64,000 nucleotides of DNA, from positions 1 through 64,000 of the forward strand of contig QOUO01000002.1 of assembly GCA_003862195.1 (NCBI GenBank), given 5' to 3'. This stretch comes from Coriobacteriaceae bacterium (GTDB taxonomy: Bacteria; Actinomycetota; Coriobacteriia; Coriobacteriales; Atopobiaceae). Shown here in pieces: positions 52,178 to 61,420 of the stretch (its first letter is position 1; each line of letters begins with the position of its first letter). A program made the position numbers and the translations under genes. Under the pieces are notes generated by a model. That model ran no database searches. It saw nothing but the letters and a program-made list of their open reading frames with translations, and had not been told where the DNA came from.

Positions 52178-54550
52178 CTACCCCTTGTGCCACGGCGCGC
52201 GGCCGTTGGCCACGTTGAGGAGCACCCGCGCCATTCCCGCGGACAAGGCACCACCCGAGCTGTTGACCAGCCCAAACAACGCGCAGCCCGCGCTGGACAT
52301 GATGGACATGCGGCACTGCGGGTCGGTCTTGTCCTTGTAGCCGCGCTCGACGGCGGCCTTGATCTGGCCCGCGACAAAGCGGCAGACGCCGGAGGTCCTG
52401 CCCATCTCCAGCAGTGAGTCCGTCTCGTCGTAAGTGCCCCTGCTGTGATGTGCCTCCGGCGGGATGGGTCGGCCGAGAAGTGCCTGGAAGTCCTCCCTGC
52501 CCGGCTTGCCGTGGGGCGCGACGTACCACGTGCCCGAGAGCCTTGCCGGGCGCGCGATGCCCTTGCCGGAGACCGCGAGCTCGCCCGCGAGTCGCACGTC
52601 CTCGACCGAGGCCCCAACAAATACCTGGTAGATGCCGCCAATCGTCTTCCGCGCGCCGTCCCACACGGCAAACGCCGCCGTGTCCAGGGGCACGCTCACG
52701 CGCTTCGTCTGGCCGGGGGCCAGCTCCACGCGCGCGAAGCCGGCGAGCACCCGCGCCGGTCGCGGCAGCCCGCCCTCGGGCGCGCCCACGTAGACCTGCA
52801 CGACCTCCGCGCCGGCGACCGCACCGACGTTGGTCACGTCGAAGCTCGCCGTGGCGCCGTGGCCGCGGCCGTCGCCCGGGTCAAGCTCCAAGTTGGCATA
52901 CGAGAAGCTCGTGTACGAGAGGCCGTGCCCAAAGCAGTGCGCCACGGGCACGCCCGCCGTCTGGTAGTAGCGGTATCCCACAAAGACGCCCTCGCGGTAC
53001 TGCGACTGGCGGTGCGGCCTGCCCCACCAGCCCATGCAGGGGGCGTCGTCCGCCGTGAGCGGCCAGGTCTCGGGCAGGCGCCCGGACGGGTTGACCGCAC
53101 CCTCCAGCACGTCGACCGTCGCCTCCGCGCCGGCCTCGCCGCCCAGGCCCGCGTACAGCACCGCGGCCACGTCCTTCTCCCACGGAAGCTCGACGGGGCT
53201 TCCGCACTGCAGCACCACCACGGTGTTGGGGTTGGCGACCGCCACGGCCTCCACCAGGCGGTTCATGCCCTCGGGAAGGCGCATGTCGTCGCGGTCGTAG
53301 CCCTCGGACTCCACGGTCTCGGGCAGGCCGCACACCACCACGGCCACGTCCGCGCCGCGGGCCGTGCGCACGGCCTCGGCCACCAGCGCGTCCGTGGTGG
53401 CGCCGGTGCGTGCGTCGTAGCCGGCGGCATAGGCCCAGCCGGGACGCAGCCCGCGGATGCTGCTCACGTGGCGCGCGTTGATGTGGCTGGAGCCTCCGCC
53501 CTGGTAGCGGGGCCTGTCCGCCATCTGGCCCACCAGCGCCACGCTCGTACCCGCGGCAAGCGGCAGCACGCCGTTATTGGTGAGAAGGACATGCCCCTCG
53601 GCCGCGACGCGGCGCGCGACGGCACGGTTTGCCTCCACGTCCACCGCGGGCGCGCCCTGGGCGTCGTTCGCGTGGGAGATCGCGAGCGCCGCAAGGCGAC
53701 GCGCAGACTCGCGCACGCGCCCCTCGCGGAGCGTCCCAGCGTCCAGCGCGGCGGTCGCCTGGGCCTGCAGGTGCCTGGTGCCGCCGGGCATGGCCAGGTC
53801 GCAGCCCGCCTCGTAGGCGGCGGCGCGGTCATGCATGCCGCCCCAGTCCGTCACCACCACGCCGTCGAACCCCCACTCGTCGCGCAGGATGTCGCGAAGC
53901 AGGTGGTCGTTGTCGCTGCAATAGGTGCCGTTCAGCATCACGTAGGCGCTCATGACCATCTGCGGCCTGGCCTCGCGCACCACCATCTGGAAGGCGCGCA
54001 GGTAGACCTCGCGCAGGGTGCGCTCGTCCACCACGCAGTCGTTACTGAAGCGCTTGTACTCCTGGTTGTTGACGGCAAAGTGCTTGATGCAGGACCCCAC
54101 GCCCGTGGACTGCACGCCCCTCACGTAGCTTGTGCCCAGCGTGCCCGCCAGGTACGGGTCCTCGCTCAGGTACTCGAAGTTGCGGCCGCAGAGCGGGCTG
54201 CGCTTGATGTTGAGGCCCGGCCCCAGCACCACGCCCACGCCGAGCGAGCGCGCCTCGTGCCCGATGGCACGCCCCATCTGGCCCGCGAGCTCCGCGTCCC
54301 ACGTGGCGGCCACGGTAGCCAGGCACGGGAAGCAGGTGGCGGGCTCGGCGGGACCCGCGCCGCGCACGTCGTTTCCGGGCCTCTGGTAGCGGAGGCCATT
54401 GGGCCCGTCGCTCACCGTGAGCGCGGGGATGCCGGCCTCGGGATAGGCCCTGGTGCGCCAGAAGTCCGCGCCGACGTCCAGGTCAAGCAGCTGCTCGCGG
54501 CTCAGCTTGGCCACCCCCTTCTCGGCGGCGTCCGTGCACTTGGAATCCAT
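52178..54550 (-). CDS. Glycoside hydrolase family 3 beta-glucosidase
   Basis: 790 aa, with no signal peptide, so cytoplasmic. The (alpha/beta)8 domain has VSDGPNGLRYQRPG, LGPGLNIKRSPLCGRNFEY, IKHFAVNNQEYKR (KHF), and the nucleophile Asp in GVVVTDWGGMHDRAAAY. A flavodoxin-like second domain (ADVAVVVCGLPETVESEGYDRDDM) and an Fn3-like region (ASFDVTNVGAVAGAEVVQVYV) follow. Substrate probably beta-glucosides. Its ATG abuts the tetR stop, so the pair is an operon. Confidence 0.93.
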   Translation of the reverse strand: MDSKCTDAAEKGVAKLSREQLLDLDVGADFWRTRAYPEAGIPALTVSDGPNGLRYQRPGNDVRGAGPAEPATCFPCLATVAATWDAELAGQMGRAIGHEARSLGVGVVLGPGLNIKRSPLCGRNFEYLSEDPYLAGTLGTSYVRGVQSTGVGSCIKHFAVNNQEYKRFSNDCVVDERTLREVYLRAFQMVVREARPQMVMSAYVMLNGTYCSDNDHLLRDILRDEWGFDGVVVTDWGGMHDRAAAYEAGCDLAMPGGTRHLQAQATAALDAGTLREGRVRESARRLAALAISHANDAQGAPAVDVEANRAVARRVAAEGHVLLTNNGVLPLAAGTSVALVGQMADRPRYQGGGSSHINARHVSSIRGLRPGWAYAAGYDARTGATTDALVAEAVRTARGADVAVVVCGLPETVESEGYDRDDMRLPEGMNRLVEAVAVANPNTVVVLQCGSPVELPWEKDVAAVLYAGLGGEAGAEATVDVLEGAVNPSGRLPETWPLTADDAPCMGWWGRPHRQSQYREGVFVGYRYYQTAGVPVAHCFGHGLSYTSFSYANLELDPGDGRGHGATASFDVTNVGAVAGAEVVQVYVGAPEGGLPRPARVLAGFARVELAPGQTKRVSVPLDTAAFAVWDGARKTIGGIYQVFVGASVEDVRLAGELAVSGKGIARPARLSGTWYVAPHGKPGREDFQALLGRPIPPEAHHSRGTYDETDSLLEMGRTSGVCRFVAGQIKAAVERGYKDKTDPQCRMSIMSSAGCALFGLVNSSGGALSAGMARVLLNVANGRAPWHKG

Positions 54551-55159
54551 CTAGGCCTCCCGTTCGGGCCCCGAGGCCTCGCCCTTCTCGCATAGCGTGG
54601 AGCCCACGGCCACGATGAGCCGGCAGAGGCTCTGGTTGAGCTCCTCCACGGTCTCGCTGCCGTACGTGCCCTCGAGCCAGGAGCCGTACGCGTCGCGCAC
54701 GCCGCCGAGCACGAAGTCGACCACCTCGACCGGGTAGTTGCCGGAATCCGGGAACTCCTGCCTGATCATCTGGTGCAGGCGCTCCGCGATGCGGTTCATG
54801 ATGGCCGTGAGGAAGGGCCCGAGCCGGTCGTTGTCCACGAGCTTGCGGATGAGCGAGAGGTTGTCGCACACGAAGTCTCCCAGGCGCTGCAGGAGCGGCA
54901 TGGGGTCCTGGAAGAACGAGCGGCTCACCAGCGGGCTGAGCGAGGCGGAGAGCCGCTCCGTCAGGTCGTCCATCGTCTGGTCCATGAGCTGGTCCACGCT
55001 CTGGAAGTGGGCATAGAACGTGCCGCGATTGAGGTCCGCGCGGCGCGTGATGTCCGTCACGGTGATCTTGTCGTACGGCTTCTCCGCGATGAGAAGCGTG
55101 AGCGCCTCCTCGAGCAGGCGTATCGACCTCAGGGCGTTGCGATTCTTGGTGGCAGCCAT
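54551..55159 (-). CDS. TetR-family transcriptional regulator
   Basis: 202 aa. The N-terminal helix-turn-helix ITVTDITRRADLNRGTFYAHFQSVDQLMDQ is a standard TetR DNA-binding part, followed by a helical ligand domain. ATG at 55159. It is divergent from the MMPL gene and upstream of GH3, so it probably controls either. Palindromes at 55201-55262 are likely binding sites. Confidence 0.92.
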   Translation of the reverse strand: MAATKNRNALRSIRLLEEALTLLIAEKPYDKITVTDITRRADLNRGTFYAHFQSVDQLMDQTMDDLTERLSASLSPLVSRSFFQDPMPLLQRLGDFVCDNLSLIRKLVDNDRLGPFLTAIMNRIAERLHQMIRQEFPDSGNYPVEVVDFVLGGVRDAYGSWLEGTYGSETVEELNQSLCRLIVAVGSTLCEKGEASGPEREA

Positions 55160-55200
55160 CTTTCCCCCAAACCCATGCGCCGGCCGGTGCCGTGTCATTC

Positions 55201-55262
55201 TCGCACACACAAGTGCGAAATTGTCGCTATTTGAACGGCATTCAAAATGCTGTGCAAATAGC
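55201..55262. promoter_or_regulatory. Nested palindromes in the tetR/MMPL divergent region
   Basis: TCGCAC...GTGCGA (55201-55218), TTGAACGGCATTCAA (55231-55245, a 5-5-5 palindrome) and GCTATTTG...CAAATAGC (55226-55262). The last two share a centre region and suit a TetR dimer. The rest of 55160-55399 holds no gene. Confidence 0.6.
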
Positions 55263-55399
55263 TCCCCCACACCCTTTTCAGCCCTGATGTGGGTAATTTC
55301 CAACATGTGTATGTTTTACCACATTTGGACATACTCAAACGGTCGTTCGCCAGCAACGAGAAAAGTCGTCGGCGGGCGCGGAGAGGGAGGCACCAGGAA

Positions 55400-57550
55400 A
55401 TGGAACGGCTGTTTCGCGGGGTCCTGAAGCACCGCGGCATCGTGATCGGCGTCTTCGTGACGCTTGCGGTCATCTGCGCGTGCCTGATCCCGCAGGTCAA
55501 GATCGACGCGAACATGAGCGACTACCTGCCGCCCACGGCCAAGTCGTCCGAGGACCTCGACGCGATGAAGCGCATCTACGGCAACGACATCACCAACGCA
55601 CGCGTCTACGTCACGGGCATCAGCCTGCCCGACGCCAAGGCGCTCGACAAGCGCCTCAAGGGCGAGAAGGACGTGATCTCGGTCACGTGGCTCGGCGACG
55701 AGGTGGACGTGAGCGAGCCGCTTGAGACCCAGGACGCGGACACGATATCCGACTGGTACGACGGCAAGGGCTACCTGTTCCAGGCCGTGCTCAAGTCCGG
55801 CGTGAAGCAGAGCCAGATCGACCACATCCGCAAGGTCGCCAAGGCCGTCCCCGGCGCCAAGAAGGTCGCCATCGACGGATCGGCCGCGGACGACGCGGCC
55901 AACATGGCCACCATCAACACCGACATGGGCAAGATCATGACGATCGCCGTGATCGTGGTGCTCGTCGTGGTGGCGCTCAACACCACCAGCTACCTGCACC
56001 CGATCGTGATGCTGCTCACCATAGGCGTGGCCATCATCCTCAACATGGGCACGAACATCTTCAGGGGGACCATCTCGTCCATCACGCAGCTTGTGGCGAG
56101 CGTCCTGCAGCTGGCGGTCTCCATGGACTACTCCATCGTCCTTCTCACCAACTTCGGGCGCGCGCAGCAGAAGACGGACGACCAGTTCGAGGCCATGGTC
56201 GCGGCCATGACCAAGTCGTTCCCGGTCATCCTGAGCTCCGCGGCCGTCACGTTCTTCGGATTCCTGTCGCTTTCCGCCATGCAGTTCCTCATCGGCGCGG
56301 ACATGGGCATAGCGCTGGCCAAGGGCATTGTGTGCTCGTTCTTCTCCATCACGCTCCTCATGCCCTGCATCCTGTACAACATGCGCAACCTCGTGGCCAA
56401 GACCACGCACAAGCCGTTCTTCCGCAGCTTCCATGGCATGGCCAAGGTCTGCCACGCGCTGTCCGTCCCCGCGCTCATCATCGCGGCCGTCGTGGCCGTG
56501 CCGGCGCTCCTGGCCTCCCAGTCCGTGAGCTTCACGTACGGGTCTGCCGCCAACATGTCGCCCACCTCGCAGGTCAAGCTTGACGGCGACGTGATCAACA
56601 AGGCGTTCGGCCAGCAGCAGACGTGGGCCATCATGGTCCCGGCCGAGCACTGGGGCGACGAGAACGCCCTGGTGGAGGACCTGCAGAAGCTCCCCACCAC
56701 CAAGAGCGTCCTCTCCTACTCCACCATCGCGAGCTCCGCGATGCCCCACCAGCTGGCTGACAAGAGCCAGATAAAGCAGCTCTTCAGCGGCGGCTACAGC
56801 CGCATCGTCCTCACGTCCAAGATCCCGGACGAGTCCAAGCAGGCCTTTGACCTGGTCGACAAGGTCCGCAGCCTCTGCAAGGCGCGCTATGGCAACAGGT
56901 ACCGCCTCGTGGGCAACGCCGTGAGCTACTCGGACATCAAGTCCGTCACGTCCAGCGACAACACCACGGTCAAGCTCGCCTCGATCCTGGCCATCGGCGC
57001 CGTGCTGCTGGTCATGTTCAGGTCCATCTCCATCCCCATCATCCTCATCATGGCGATCGAGGTCTCCATCTGGATGAACGAGGCCGTCCCCTACCTCATG
57101 GGGCAGACCATGAACTTCGTGGCCTTCCTCGTGATCGACTCCGTGCAGCTGGGCGCCGCGGTCGACTACGCCATCATCTACACGGAGGAGTACCTGGCGC
57201 GCCGCAAGCGCATGCCCAAGGGCGACGCCTCCTTCCAGGCGGTCGAGAAGACCGCGCAGCCCATCATGACATCGAGCTCGATCCTGATCCTCGCGTGCCT
57301 GGGCATCTACTTCAGCGTGTCGAGCCCCATGATCCAGCAGGTGGGCATGCTGATCGCCCGTGGCGCCCTCATCAGCGTCATCCTGATCTTCTTCGTGCTG
57401 CCGCTGCTCTTCAGGCTGCTCGACGGCTTCGTGCGCGTCACCAGCTACAAGATCGGCTTCTATCGCGGCGAGCCCAAGCAGGACACCGCGGCCGCAGACA
57501 GCGGCAACCCAGACCCCAACCAGGGCGCCGGCCAAGGCGCCAACGCATAG
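55400..57550 (+). CDS. MMPL/RND family membrane transporter
   Basis: 716 aa. One membrane helix near residue 15, an extracytoplasmic domain, then a five-helix bundle (IMTIAVIVVLVVVALNTTS, AVSMDYSIVLLTNFGRAQQ); the whole unit is repeated in the second half with QLGAAVDYAIIYTEEYLARR. The MDYS and VDYA aspartates are the RND/MMPL proton relay positions. It probably exports a lipid or amphiphile. ATG at 55400 is preceded by GGGAGG. The next gene starts 49 bp downstream. Confidence 0.9.
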   Translation: MERLFRGVLKHRGIVIGVFVTLAVICACLIPQVKIDANMSDYLPPTAKSSEDLDAMKRIYGNDITNARVYVTGISLPDAKALDKRLKGEKDVISVTWLGDEVDVSEPLETQDADTISDWYDGKGYLFQAVLKSGVKQSQIDHIRKVAKAVPGAKKVAIDGSAADDAANMATINTDMGKIMTIAVIVVLVVVALNTTSYLHPIVMLLTIGVAIILNMGTNIFRGTISSITQLVASVLQLAVSMDYSIVLLTNFGRAQQKTDDQFEAMVAAMTKSFPVILSSAAVTFFGFLSLSAMQFLIGADMGIALAKGIVCSFFSITLLMPCILYNMRNLVAKTTHKPFFRSFHGMAKVCHALSVPALIIAAVVAVPALLASQSVSFTYGSAANMSPTSQVKLDGDVINKAFGQQQTWAIMVPAEHWGDENALVEDLQKLPTTKSVLSYSTIASSAMPHQLADKSQIKQLFSGGYSRIVLTSKIPDESKQAFDLVDKVRSLCKARYGNRYRLVGNAVSYSDIKSVTSSDNTTVKLASILAIGAVLLVMFRSISIPIILIMAIEVSIWMNEAVPYLMGQTMNFVAFLVIDSVQLGAAVDYAIIYTEEYLARRKRMPKGDASFQAVEKTAQPIMTSSSILILACLGIYFSVSSPMIQQVGMLIARGALISVILIFFVLPLLFRLLDGFVRVTSYKIGFYRGEPKQDTAAADSGNPDPNQGAGQGANA

Positions 57551-57599
57551 CGCCCACACGGCGCACGTCAGGCACAACCACACGAACGGAGTGACAGAC

Positions 57600-60287
57600 A
57601 TGAGCAAGACAAACGCAAGCGAGATCCCCCTCGGCAAGCGGATAGCGACCGGCGCCATAGGCGCGGTGCTGAGCCTCAGCATGACCATCCCGTTTGGCAC
57701 CACACAGGCCATCGCGGAGGAGGCCTCCGACACGGGCGAGAAGAGCGTGACCCACGGGGCCAGCACCGCCACCACGGCAAAGCGCGAGGTGGTGTACACG
57801 AGGACCAACGCCTCCGGCTCCTCCACCGGCTCGTACGTGGTGAACGCGTTCGACACGCCCACCAAGACGAACATCCAGGACCCCGGCAGCTACCAGAAGC
57901 TGACGAACCTCACCACCAACAAGAAGCTGGAGGAGAAGGACGGCAAGGTCGACCTGACGACCGTCGCGGGCGAGCCCTTCTACTACCAGGGCAACCTCGA
58001 CAAGGACACGACGCTCCCCTGGACGGTGCAGATAACCTACAGGCTCGACGGCAAGGTCGTGAAGCCGAGCGAGCTCGCGGGCAAGGACGGCAAGCTGGAC
58101 ATCGAGCTCAAGGTGACCGGCCTGGTCGACGACTCCGCCACCGCGGACTTTGCCAAGAGCTTCCTGCTGCAGGCGCAGGGCACCTTCCCCAACCAGAACT
58201 TCAAGCTCGACCAGGCCAACAACGCCACCGTCGCCACGAGCGGCAGCAACACCGTCCTCACCTACGTACTCATCCCCGGGCAGGACGGCGACTGGCACAT
58301 CACGGGCAAGGCCAAGGACTTCACCTACAGCGGCTGGCAGATAGCCGCCATGCCGCTTGACCTCAACCTCGACACGAGCAAGATCGACACCTCGGAGCTC
58401 ACGAGCGCCACGGACAAGCTGCAGAGCGGCGTCGCGCAGCTCGACCAGGGCGGCGCCAAGCTGCGTGACGCCCTCGGCGAGCTCGCCAATGGCGCCGGCC
58501 AGGCACAGTCCGGCGCGGGCACGCTCGCGTCCGGCGCGGACCAGCTCGCTGCGGGCACGCGTGAGGCCAAGGCGGGCGTGGGCAAGCTGGACTCCGGTGC
58601 GGGCACGCTCGCGTCCGGCAGCTCGAGCCTGGCGTCCGGCAGCGCCAGCCTCGCGTCCGGCAGCAGGAGCCTGGCGTCCGGCAACGGCAGGCTCGCCACC
58701 GGCGCCAGGCAGCTGAGCCAGGGCGCCAAGTCCCTGCAGGGCGCGCTCCAGAGCCAGAACGGCAACTTCACCAAGCTCGACTCGGGCGCCAAGCAGGTGT
58801 CCCAGGGCACGCAGCAGCTGTACCAGACGCTTTCCGCCACGCTGCCGCAGCAGCTCCTGCAGGTCAACCAGGGCCTCAACCAGACGCGCGCGTCGCTCGA
58901 GGGCATCCAGCAGAAGCTCGCGACCATCAAGCAGCAAGCGGGCAGCATGTCCTCCGCGGCGCAGGGCGCCATCCAGCAGGCCGAGGCCGTCAAGAGCGAC
59001 CTCACGACGCTCGAGAAGGGCGCGAGCGGCCTCACGACGGCGCTGGGCCAGGCCGGCCAGTCCGCCGGCACGGCGCAGGCCGAAGCCACGGGCTCCAAGC
59101 AGGCGGCGGACGGCGCCAAGCAGGCCGCGGACGCGGCCAGCTCCAGCGCCGCGTCGGCCAGCTCCCAGCTCGATGCGCTGCTTTCCGACACCACGCTGAC
59201 CGCCGACCAGAAGGCCAAGATCCAGGCCGCTGACGAGCAGGCCAAGGCGGCCGAGAAGGGCGCGGGCACGGCGTCGCAGTACGCCGCCACCGCCTCCACG
59301 TATGCCGGCAAGGCAGCGCAGGACTCGGGCTCCGCGCTCAACACGATCAAGGGCCTTGGCTCCTCTCTGCAGGGCATGCAGGCCGCTGGCGCGCAGCTCC
59401 AGAAGGACGCCGAGTCGCTCAAGTCCACGCTCGGCCAGATGCAGGCCGGCATCAAGGGCGTGACCGGCGAGTCCGCCGACGTGCTCGACAGCTCGCAGAA
59501 GGTGCTCGACGGCTCGCAGCAGCTCGTCAACAAGACGCAGCAGCAGCTGTCCGGCTTTGACCTCAGCCAGCTCAAGCAGCTGTCCGACGGCGCGGCACAG
59601 GTATCCAGCGGCGTGAGCTCCCTCGTGAGCTCGCTCAAGGCCACGAGCGGCACCACCACGATTGGCGGCGCGGTGAGCAGCCTCGCGAGCGGCGCGGACC
59701 AGCTCAGCAGCGGAGCCGACTCCGCGGCGTCCGGTGCCAACCAGGTCGCCAGCGGCGCGGGCAAGGTCGCGTCCGGCGCAAGCCAGGTCGCGGGCGGCGC
59801 GTCCCAGCTCAAGAACGGGCTCGACACGCTCGACTCCGGCGCGACGCGCCTCGACAGCGGCGCCAGCCAGCTCGCGTCCGGCGCGCACACGCTCGACAGC
59901 GGCCTGGGCACGCTGGCCAGCGGCGCCTCGCAGGCGCACTCCGGCTCCGCCACGCTCGCGAGCGGCCTCGACACGCTCGCCTCGTCCACGAGCGGCCTCG
60001 ACCAGAAGGTGATTGACAAGCTCAAGAGCACCATTCGCCAGAAGCTCGGCCAGGACTACCAGATCCACTCGTTCGTGGACCCCTCCAACACCAACGTGAG
60101 CGAGGTGCAGTTCGTCTACGTGGTGGACGGCGTCAAGGAGGCCAAGTCCTCGAGCGAGAAGAGCAGTGACTCCAAGAGCAGCTCCAAGTCCGAGTCCAAG
60201 TCCTCCAAGGAGGACGAGGGTTCCAAGAGCTCATCGTTCATGGAGCGGCTGGGCGCGCTCTTCTCCGGCAAGAAGGAGGACGAGTAG
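57600..60287 (+). CDS. Giant secreted SG-repeat coiled-coil protein (YhgE/EsaA-like)
   Basis: 895 aa. The first 45 residues form a signal (LGKRIATGAIGAVLSLSMT, then TQAIAEEA, possible cleavage after AIA). An N-terminal beta domain (residues 60-260: VQITYRLDGKVVKPSELAG) precedes about 30 heptad-like units of the form SGAxxLASGxxxL (for example SGAGTLASGADQLAAG), split by a 280-residue helical section with SAxxxxKQAAD. The C-terminus is Ser-Lys-rich and charged and has no membrane helix, unlike YhgE/Pip. It resembles the extracellular parts of YhgE, YueB and EsaA. The adjacent MMPL gene probably supplies the membrane portion. Confidence 0.8.
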   Translation: MSKTNASEIPLGKRIATGAIGAVLSLSMTIPFGTTQAIAEEASDTGEKSVTHGASTATTAKREVVYTRTNASGSSTGSYVVNAFDTPTKTNIQDPGSYQKLTNLTTNKKLEEKDGKVDLTTVAGEPFYYQGNLDKDTTLPWTVQITYRLDGKVVKPSELAGKDGKLDIELKVTGLVDDSATADFAKSFLLQAQGTFPNQNFKLDQANNATVATSGSNTVLTYVLIPGQDGDWHITGKAKDFTYSGWQIAAMPLDLNLDTSKIDTSELTSATDKLQSGVAQLDQGGAKLRDALGELANGAGQAQSGAGTLASGADQLAAGTREAKAGVGKLDSGAGTLASGSSSLASGSASLASGSRSLASGNGRLATGARQLSQGAKSLQGALQSQNGNFTKLDSGAKQVSQGTQQLYQTLSATLPQQLLQVNQGLNQTRASLEGIQQKLATIKQQAGSMSSAAQGAIQQAEAVKSDLTTLEKGASGLTTALGQAGQSAGTAQAEATGSKQAADGAKQAADAASSSAASASSQLDALLSDTTLTADQKAKIQAADEQAKAAEKGAGTASQYAATASTYAGKAAQDSGSALNTIKGLGSSLQGMQAAGAQLQKDAESLKSTLGQMQAGIKGVTGESADVLDSSQKVLDGSQQLVNKTQQQLSGFDLSQLKQLSDGAAQVSSGVSSLVSSLKATSGTTTIGGAVSSLASGADQLSSGADSAASGANQVASGAGKVASGASQVAGGASQLKNGLDTLDSGATRLDSGASQLASGAHTLDSGLGTLASGASQAHSGSATLASGLDTLASSTSGLDQKVIDKLKSTIRQKLGQDYQIHSFVDPSNTNVSEVQFVYVVDGVKEAKSSSEKSSDSKSSSKSESKSSKEDEGSKSSSFMERLGALFSGKKEDE

Positions 60288-60613: not shown

Positions 60614-61420
60614 ATGGGGAACAAACTGCTCAGGATTTGCACGGCGCTCCTGCTGGTCGTTGGAATCGCCGCATGCAGCAACGGCGCCGACAGCAAGGAC
60701 GCAAGCTCTTCAAACAACTACGCGGATGGCAAGGCCATGCAGGTAATCGCGAACGGCCTCGAGGCTCGTTGGAAGCTTACGGATGAGTTTGACTCCGCCG
60801 GCAAGGATGCGACCGCCAGCGACTACAAGGATTGGATTAACGCCGAGCTCAAGATTGATAAGTCACTCAGGAACGAAAAGTTCAAGAGTTCGGCCATGCA
60901 AAAGGACGTCATCGACTACATCAACGTTCTTGAGGAATCCAAGACTGTTGTCGACAAGTACCCCATGTCAGGCCTTGACTTCTGGACCAAGTGGAGCGAG
61001 ACGTACGACAAGAGGACTGCACTCATCAAGAAGTTCGTAGACAAGTACGATCTCAAGGTCAGCAAGGAGTACTCCAAGACCCTGAAGGAGCTCGTCGATA
61101 ACGGCAAAGCCGCACAATCGCAAACCGAAAAGAAGGACGCCATCAACGCGCTGGTATCCTCCCTCGCTTGGACTACGACTGACGACGGATACGGGAACTA
61201 CACCCTCACAGCAACCGCACAGAACAACACCAAGTACAACATCAAAGATCTCAGCATCGTCCTCTCCATATATGATCAGAACAACGTGAAGCAGCAGGAG
61301 ACTTACACTTCCGTCGACTCGTGGAAGGCTGGAGAGACCATCAAGCTTGAAGCGTATGCGCAAAGCGCCCCCACGCGCGTCGAATCAAGCGTGGATTACT
61401 TCGACACCTCTGATGAATAG
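60614..61420 (+). CDS. Lipoprotein with C-terminal beta domain
   Basis: 268 aa. Signal peptide with lipobox VGIAAC (Cys at about residue 21), then a Ser/Asn linker, a helical region (residues 40-170), and a C-terminal beta-sandwich (YTLTATAQNNTKYNIKDLSIVLSIYDQNN... similar to FxLYD-type domains). It has fewer GC-third codons than its neighbours. GGAGG precedes ATG 60614. Function unknown. Confidence 0.75.
   Translation: MGNKLLRICTALLLVVGIAACSNGADSKDASSSNNYADGKAMQVIANGLEARWKLTDEFDSAGKDATASDYKDWINAELKIDKSLRNEKFKSSAMQKDVIDYINVLEESKTVVDKYPMSGLDFWTKWSETYDKRTALIKKFVDKYDLKVSKEYSKTLKELVDNGKAAQSQTEKKDAINALVSSLAWTTTDDGYGNYTLTATAQNNTKYNIKDLSIVLSIYDQNNVKQQETYTSVDSWKAGETIKLEAYAQSAPTRVESSVDYFDTSDE

Follow-up and report, generated by a model that had tools for sequence, protein, structure and literature searches.

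A putative two-part exporter of thick-walled bacteria: a TetR-flanked MMPL transporter and its secreted SG-repeat partner

Membrane fusion protein (MFP) adaptors serve pumps of the resistance-nodulation-division (RND), ATP-binding cassette (ABC) and major facilitator superfamily (MFS) types. The adaptor Spr0693 of Streptococcus pneumoniae provides a Gram-positive precedent (PMC5768738), and for the RND pump MmpL5 a helical coiled-coil tube has been proposed to carry the substrate across the envelope (PMC12501195). Residues 494-688 of MmpL5 are missing from the construct used for cryo-electron microscopy (PMC12501195); in our own reading, these residues are the coil, which belongs to the pump chain itself. 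How an RND pump works without an outer membrane, and whether its substrate is carried through the wall at all, is an unsettled question, which we address here with a three-gene cluster of a thick-walled gut bacterium of the Atopobiaceae (contig QOUO01000002.1, positions 1 to 64,000; this 64,000-nucleotide stretch is called the window, and positions refer to it). The cluster consists of a TetR-family regulator gene on the minus strand followed, on the plus strand, by the genes for an MMPL/RND transporter and for a secreted SG-repeat protein (hereafter the SG protein).

We propose, with what we consider a slightly better than even chance, that the cluster encodes a TetR-flanked two-part exporter, in which the SG protein acts as the adaptor, or stalk, of the MMPL transporter through the wall. 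No paper on this pair was found in the open-licence literature, and one may exist elsewhere. A family of SG hairpins that tracks its pump in nearly every genome, and whose two arms are of equal length, is a testable candidate for the carrier; if the proposal is true, proteins annotated merely as "X-X-X-Leu-X-X-Gly heptad repeat" or hypothetical would gain a function as well.

Pairing, hairpin geometry and pump partners

The original prediction held that the transporter and the SG protein form a pair, and took genes lying apart in most genomes as the outcome that would speak against it. In a survey of 331 Coriobacteriia genomes, the N-terminal beta domain of the SG protein is present in 116 copies, distributed over 109 genomes. 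Eighty-one of these copies share the strand of an MMPL gene and lie directly downstream of it, with 114-512 bp separating the domain edges, and, in the reverse direction, 79 of the 82 MMPLs found at a 537-bit cut-off adjoin an SG gene; two of the three unpaired ones are at contig ends and the third, L078, carries a fused secreted partner. The genes are together in most genomes, the two proteins belong together, and their adjacency is not a chance neighbourhood. The order of divergent TetR, MMPL and SG genes is found in 11 of the 11 loci from the genome collection (L004-L014), where Parafannyhessea umbonata is the closest named relative (MMPL 90% identical); the TetR gene is common, yet undetected at some distant loci. 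The order recurs on a Clostridia plasmid (Subdoligranulum, L026), where the SG protein has the same beta domain, together with SFWDRVKNLFS at its C-terminus. Searching plasmids by tblastn gave two Clostridia clusters with the MMPL as query and no match with the beta domain.

The L078 protein (L078:3583-8541, minus strand, 1653 aa) is an MMPL whose C-terminus is fused to a giant secreted module, which is helical, contains GLUG motifs and ends in a transmembrane (TM) segment. In Monoglobus (L025), a giant module of this type is encoded as a separate gene directly after TetR and MMPL. Taken with the pairing above, these two loci indicate that such MMPLs accompany a giant secreted partner, and the fusion would lend indirect support to contact between an MMPL and its partner. 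Three further MMPLs (L074, L075 and L077) have in extracellular loop 2 an insert of 450-550 aa made of helical-looking units of about 75 aa, and adjoin no SG-type gene; these inserts were considered as MMPL-SG fusions and rejected, being other helical-looking repeats and not SG. At L041 (G007:C7) the MMPL gene is in fragments and the downstream SG gene is intact, which may reflect a partner outlasting its pump or an assembly fault.

The SG protein (895 aa) starts with a signal-like segment, and after residue 45 its peak 19-residue hydropathy is 0.88; because this peak is so low, no membrane helix follows the signal segment, and none is found at the C-terminus, as had been predicted. The count of about 30 SG units given in the original prediction agrees with our pattern count. 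The NCBIfam model TIGR03057 ("X-X-X-Leu-X-X-Gly heptad") matches 12 stretches, with 107.4 bits against a cut-off of 18.6, and GxxxxxxG pairs number 37, compared with 10.9 +/- 3.0 in 1000 shuffles (maximum 20), including two series, of 12 and of 14 glycines, that keep a spacing of 7 without a break. A helical structure is predicted for about 550 residues.

Structural evidence comes from the lengths of the two SG arms. Between fixed anchors, arm 1 spans 86-242 aa and arm 2 98-292 aa in the relatives, a 2-3-fold difference, around a middle segment of ~250-300 aa. The two arms covary closely in length (r=0.985 over 19 phylogenetically independent contrasts from 20 sequences, sign-flip p=1e-4; r=0.97 when the four sequences with failed anchors, left out of this set, are included; r=0.997 in 12 sequences), with correlations to the middle segment of 0.22 and 0.15 in the same independent-contrast test. 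Coupled insertions and deletions between segments ~250 residues apart are to be expected only of arms that lie side by side, and the SG protein is therefore an antiparallel hairpin. The AlphaFold2 (AF2) model of the full protein consists of long helices with a turn at residues 529-534 and breaks at ~385-389 and 679-688, nearly equidistant from the turn. With a strand length of ~289 residues, the hairpin would measure about 43 nm if fully helical, and 33-59 nm in the relatives, which is the scale of the Gram-positive wall.

The SG family also occurs beside a second type of pump. For eight copies without an MMPL (L038, L055, L057, L058, L065, L067, L068 and L069), the genes that directly follow encode an ABC ATPase and an FtsX-type permease. 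In the midpoint-rooted tree of the beta domain, these ABC-linked forms make up two separate clades within a group that contains MMPL-linked forms as well, and MMPL-linked forms occur on either side of the deepest split. The simplest reading is that the pump has been exchanged under one kind of adaptor, in the manner known for MFP adaptors. The ABC-linked relatives stop at the C-terminal strand shared by the family; the (F/W)xxRLxxLF motif beyond it is frequent in MMPL-linked relatives and missing from those linked to ABC pumps, so it may be peculiar to the partnership with the MMPL. In another context (L088:2841-6605, minus strand), an SG hairpin shares its chain with a metallophosphoesterase/5'-nucleotidase and, at the C-terminus, a TM segment, a possible hint to substrate or function.

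On the pump side, Pfam MMPL (PF03176) matches the transporter in two stretches, one in each half (155.8 bits), and 11-12 TM segments are predicted in its close homologues. In an alignment of 16 diverse MMPL homologues, Asp243 is invariant and Asp589 is conserved in at least 90%, both within DY (Asp-Tyr) motifs; these residues probably form the proton relay expected of a proton-driven RND pump. The nearest solved structures include mycobacterial MmpL4 and MmpL5. The protein scores 111 bits with the HAE3 subfamily model TIGR00921, below the curated cut-off of 352, and is best classed as an RND protein outside that named subfamily. The 716-aa chain contains no coiled-coil insert of the MmpL5 type, the coil being located in the separate SG gene.

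Proposed mechanism and its rivals

In the proposed mechanism, the MMPL would sit in the cytoplasmic membrane as a proton-driven RND pump and the SG protein, once secreted, would act as its adaptor, a reading suggested by the covariation of the arms (and hence the hairpin) and by the relatives that adjoin an ATPase and FtsX in two clades. The N-terminal beta domain and the C-terminal strand would form the base, close to the pump, to which we infer that they dock, and the intervening chain would cross the wall and return, as an antiparallel coiled-coil hairpin ~40 nm in length. Hairpins would probably be bundled into a stalk or tube (the stoichiometry, and a tube over a solid stalk, being presumed), guiding a putatively hydrophobic or amphiphilic substrate off the membrane. 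More tentatively, and in our estimate with somewhat less than an even chance, the family may represent a third, non-homologous class of exporter adaptors in thick-walled bacteria, in which a beta domain and an SG hairpin of tunable length serve RND (MMPL) pumps and, after partner exchange, MacB/FtsX-type ABC pumps, as wall-spanning conduits of matched length.

Several observations weigh against the adaptor proposal. The covariation of the arms establishes a hairpin and not a channel, and the AF2 model is of low confidence (mean pLDDT 56, pTM 0.36). A fold search in the PDB with the beta domain found no adaptor fold, and returned generic beta-sandwiches at a TM-score of ~0.4. The main weakness lies in the orphan copies: for about 27 of the 116 SG copies no transporter was seen alongside or the neighbourhood was unexamined, and around a dozen among those examined are orphans, with a pyrimidine operon as the setting of five, so the SG protein can exist without an adjacent pump.

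The likeliest alternative, which we nonetheless regard as improbable, makes the SG protein a scaffold, spacer or mechanosensor that is anchored in the wall and driven by the transporter, much as FtsEX drives PcsB, and not a substrate conduit. A single antiparallel hairpin requires no lumen, the FtsX-type permeases found beside relatives are able to transmit force, and orphan copies fit such a role; on the other hand, the partner here belongs to the RND pumps, which are known to export substrates, and the pairing with the MMPL is constant. As an observation on the orphans themselves, the five in the pyrimidine-biosynthesis operon (L054, L060, L062, L064 and L072, from one family of the order) adjoin pyrC and then pyrK/pyrD/pyrF-like genes, gene names being assigned by eye.

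Less probable still, with small odds in its favour, is a role for the SG protein as cargo, or as a surface fibre or adhesin, in which it would be a mere operon-mate of the MMPL and form no machine with it. It is indeed secreted, repetitive and variable in length, with a Ser-rich tail; against this, the pairing is conserved in over 60 genomes from two phyla, the conserved C-terminal motif occurs mostly in MMPL-linked forms, and in L078 the MMPL and a giant partner of similar kind are fused.

The idea of a split YhgE, in which the MMPL would provide the SG protein with the membrane helices that it lacks, has a very remote chance of being correct: a long extracellular heptad-repeat part is common to both systems and the MMPL-SG pairing is conserved, but the MMPL has an RND fold, whereas the membrane part of YhgE is ABC-2 (PF12698), no significant similarity joins them, and two intact YhgE genes are present alongside. 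Pairwise comparison with YhgE gave no similarity for the MMPL and low-complexity similarity alone for the SG protein (E=0.006), and the N- and C-terminal pip_yhgE domain models (Pfam/NCBIfam) match neither protein. The genome's own YhgE genes are in tandem, with pip_yhgE domains and their own ABC-2 membrane domains. A split YhgE by homology is thereby largely ruled out and was rejected. Nor did the predicted YhgE-like character of the SG protein hold, its beta domain having no YhgE match; the likeness lies in the architecture, with a long stalk of repeats on the outside of the membrane, and not in descent. The wall-spanning conduit of the original prediction thus keeps its wall-spanning coil, in the form of the ~40-nm hairpin, and loses its split-YhgE basis.

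The beta domain has no family match in Pfam or NCBIfam, and its sequence profile has no significant match in the PDB. MmpS, MFP and YhgE folds were rejected for it, as none matched; hits to mu-adaptin and to carbohydrate-binding modules are generic beta-sandwiches. Foldseek also paired the full model with the umbrella toxin Umb1 (E 5e-7, TM-score 0.11-0.14); this is a coiled-coil match with no common fold, and was left unused.

Locus layout and control region

The features are collected in Table 1. The mechanical list of open reading frames starts both plus-strand genes too far upstream, and the likely starts adopted are ATG 55400, preceded by the ribosome-binding-site-like GGGAGGCACCAGGAA, and ATG 57600; the TetR start is probably at 55159. 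Downstream of the SG gene, the lipoprotein gene was found, among the loci searched, only in the P. umbonata locus.

Table 1. Features of the cluster and its surroundings (window positions)
Feature	Position	Strand	Details
GH3 family glycoside hydrolase, ordinary	52178-54550	-	upstream of TetR
TetR-family regulator, 202 aa	54551..55159	-	Pfam TetR_N E=5e-9; divergent homologue in 11/11 collection loci
Imperfect inverted repeat	55196..55223		CATTCTCGCAC/GTGCGAAATTG; core also seen in sister species
Nested palindrome, candidate TetR operator (inferred)	55226..55262		outer GCTATTTG/CAAATAGC, inner TTTGAA/TTCAAA
Best-conserved intergenic block in genus, candidate promoter/operator	55288..55330		GGGTA..TTTnCAACATGTGTATGTTnTACCACAT
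MMPL/RND transporter, 716 aa	55400..57550	+	Pfam MMPL E=1.8e-45
SG-repeat hairpin protein, secreted, 895 aa	57600..60287	+	TIGR03057 E=1.3e-31
N-terminal beta domain, residues 60-252	57777..58355	+	conserved family signature; alignment, AF2 pLDDT 80, all-beta
SG arm 1, helix, residues 265-384	58392..58751	+
Ascending non-SG helix, residues 390-528	58767..59183	+	AF2
Hairpin tip, residues 529-534	59184..59201	+	beside conserved D-x-TLT-xx-Q
Descending non-SG helices, residues 535-678	59202..59633	+	AF2
SG arm 2, helix, residues 689-797	59664..59990	+
Conserved C-terminal strand	60096..60134	+	VSEVQFVYVVDGV; in MMPL-linked, ABC-linked and orphan relatives
C-terminal motif SFMERLGALF, (F/W)xxRLxxLF	60234..60263	+	most MMPL-linked relatives, no ABC-linked ones
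Lipoprotein with C-terminal FxLYD domain	60614-61420	+	downstream of SG gene

The divergent TetR and the nested palindromes between it and the MMPL are both present, in agreement with the original prediction. The arms of the nested palindrome are 17 nt long with 88% complementarity, and its inner half-sites lie at 55230-55246. Since the regulator gene is divergent, TetR control of the cluster is likely, presumably as repression, and control through the palindromes is plausible. In two sister-species sequences the inner half-site is recognisable and the outer arms are degraded; because of this, and because the conserved block lies elsewhere, no palindrome is singled out as the operator. Scans for sigma-70 promoters and terminators gave no match above chance.

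Comparison with known systems

Like YhgE, Pip, YueB and EsaA, the cluster has an extracellular region long enough to span the wall; it differs from them in its separate RND pump and unrelated beta domain. Proteins matched by TIGR03057 have the heptad repeat itself in common with the SG protein, but TIGR03057 is a repeat label, carrying no function, and not a family with the beta domain.

Two systems come closer. MmpL4 and MmpL5, which work with MmpS, are MMPL-family RND pumps, among the nearest solved relatives, and a coiled coil is again involved; in MmpL5 the coil is in the pump itself, whereas here it belongs to a separate secreted protein, is longer and is joined to a beta domain unmatched in the PDB. 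The MFP adaptors (AcrA, MacA and Spr0693) likewise combine a beta part at the base with an antiparallel helical hairpin, and serve RND or MacB-type ABC pumps. The antiparallel hairpin characteristic of MFP/HlyD adaptors is found in the SG protein too, as indicated by the arm covariation (r=0.985), with which the low-confidence AF2 model agrees. In contrast to these adaptors, the SG protein has no HlyD, lipoyl or beta-barrel match in Pfam or NCBIfam and no fold match, its hairpin has ~290 residues per strand, and no membrane anchor was found. Because its coil is carried by a separate secreted protein and its beta domain has no adaptor match in sequence or fold, the MMPL-SG system falls outside both families; by analogy, it would work most like MmpL5 and the MFP adaptors, as a member of neither.
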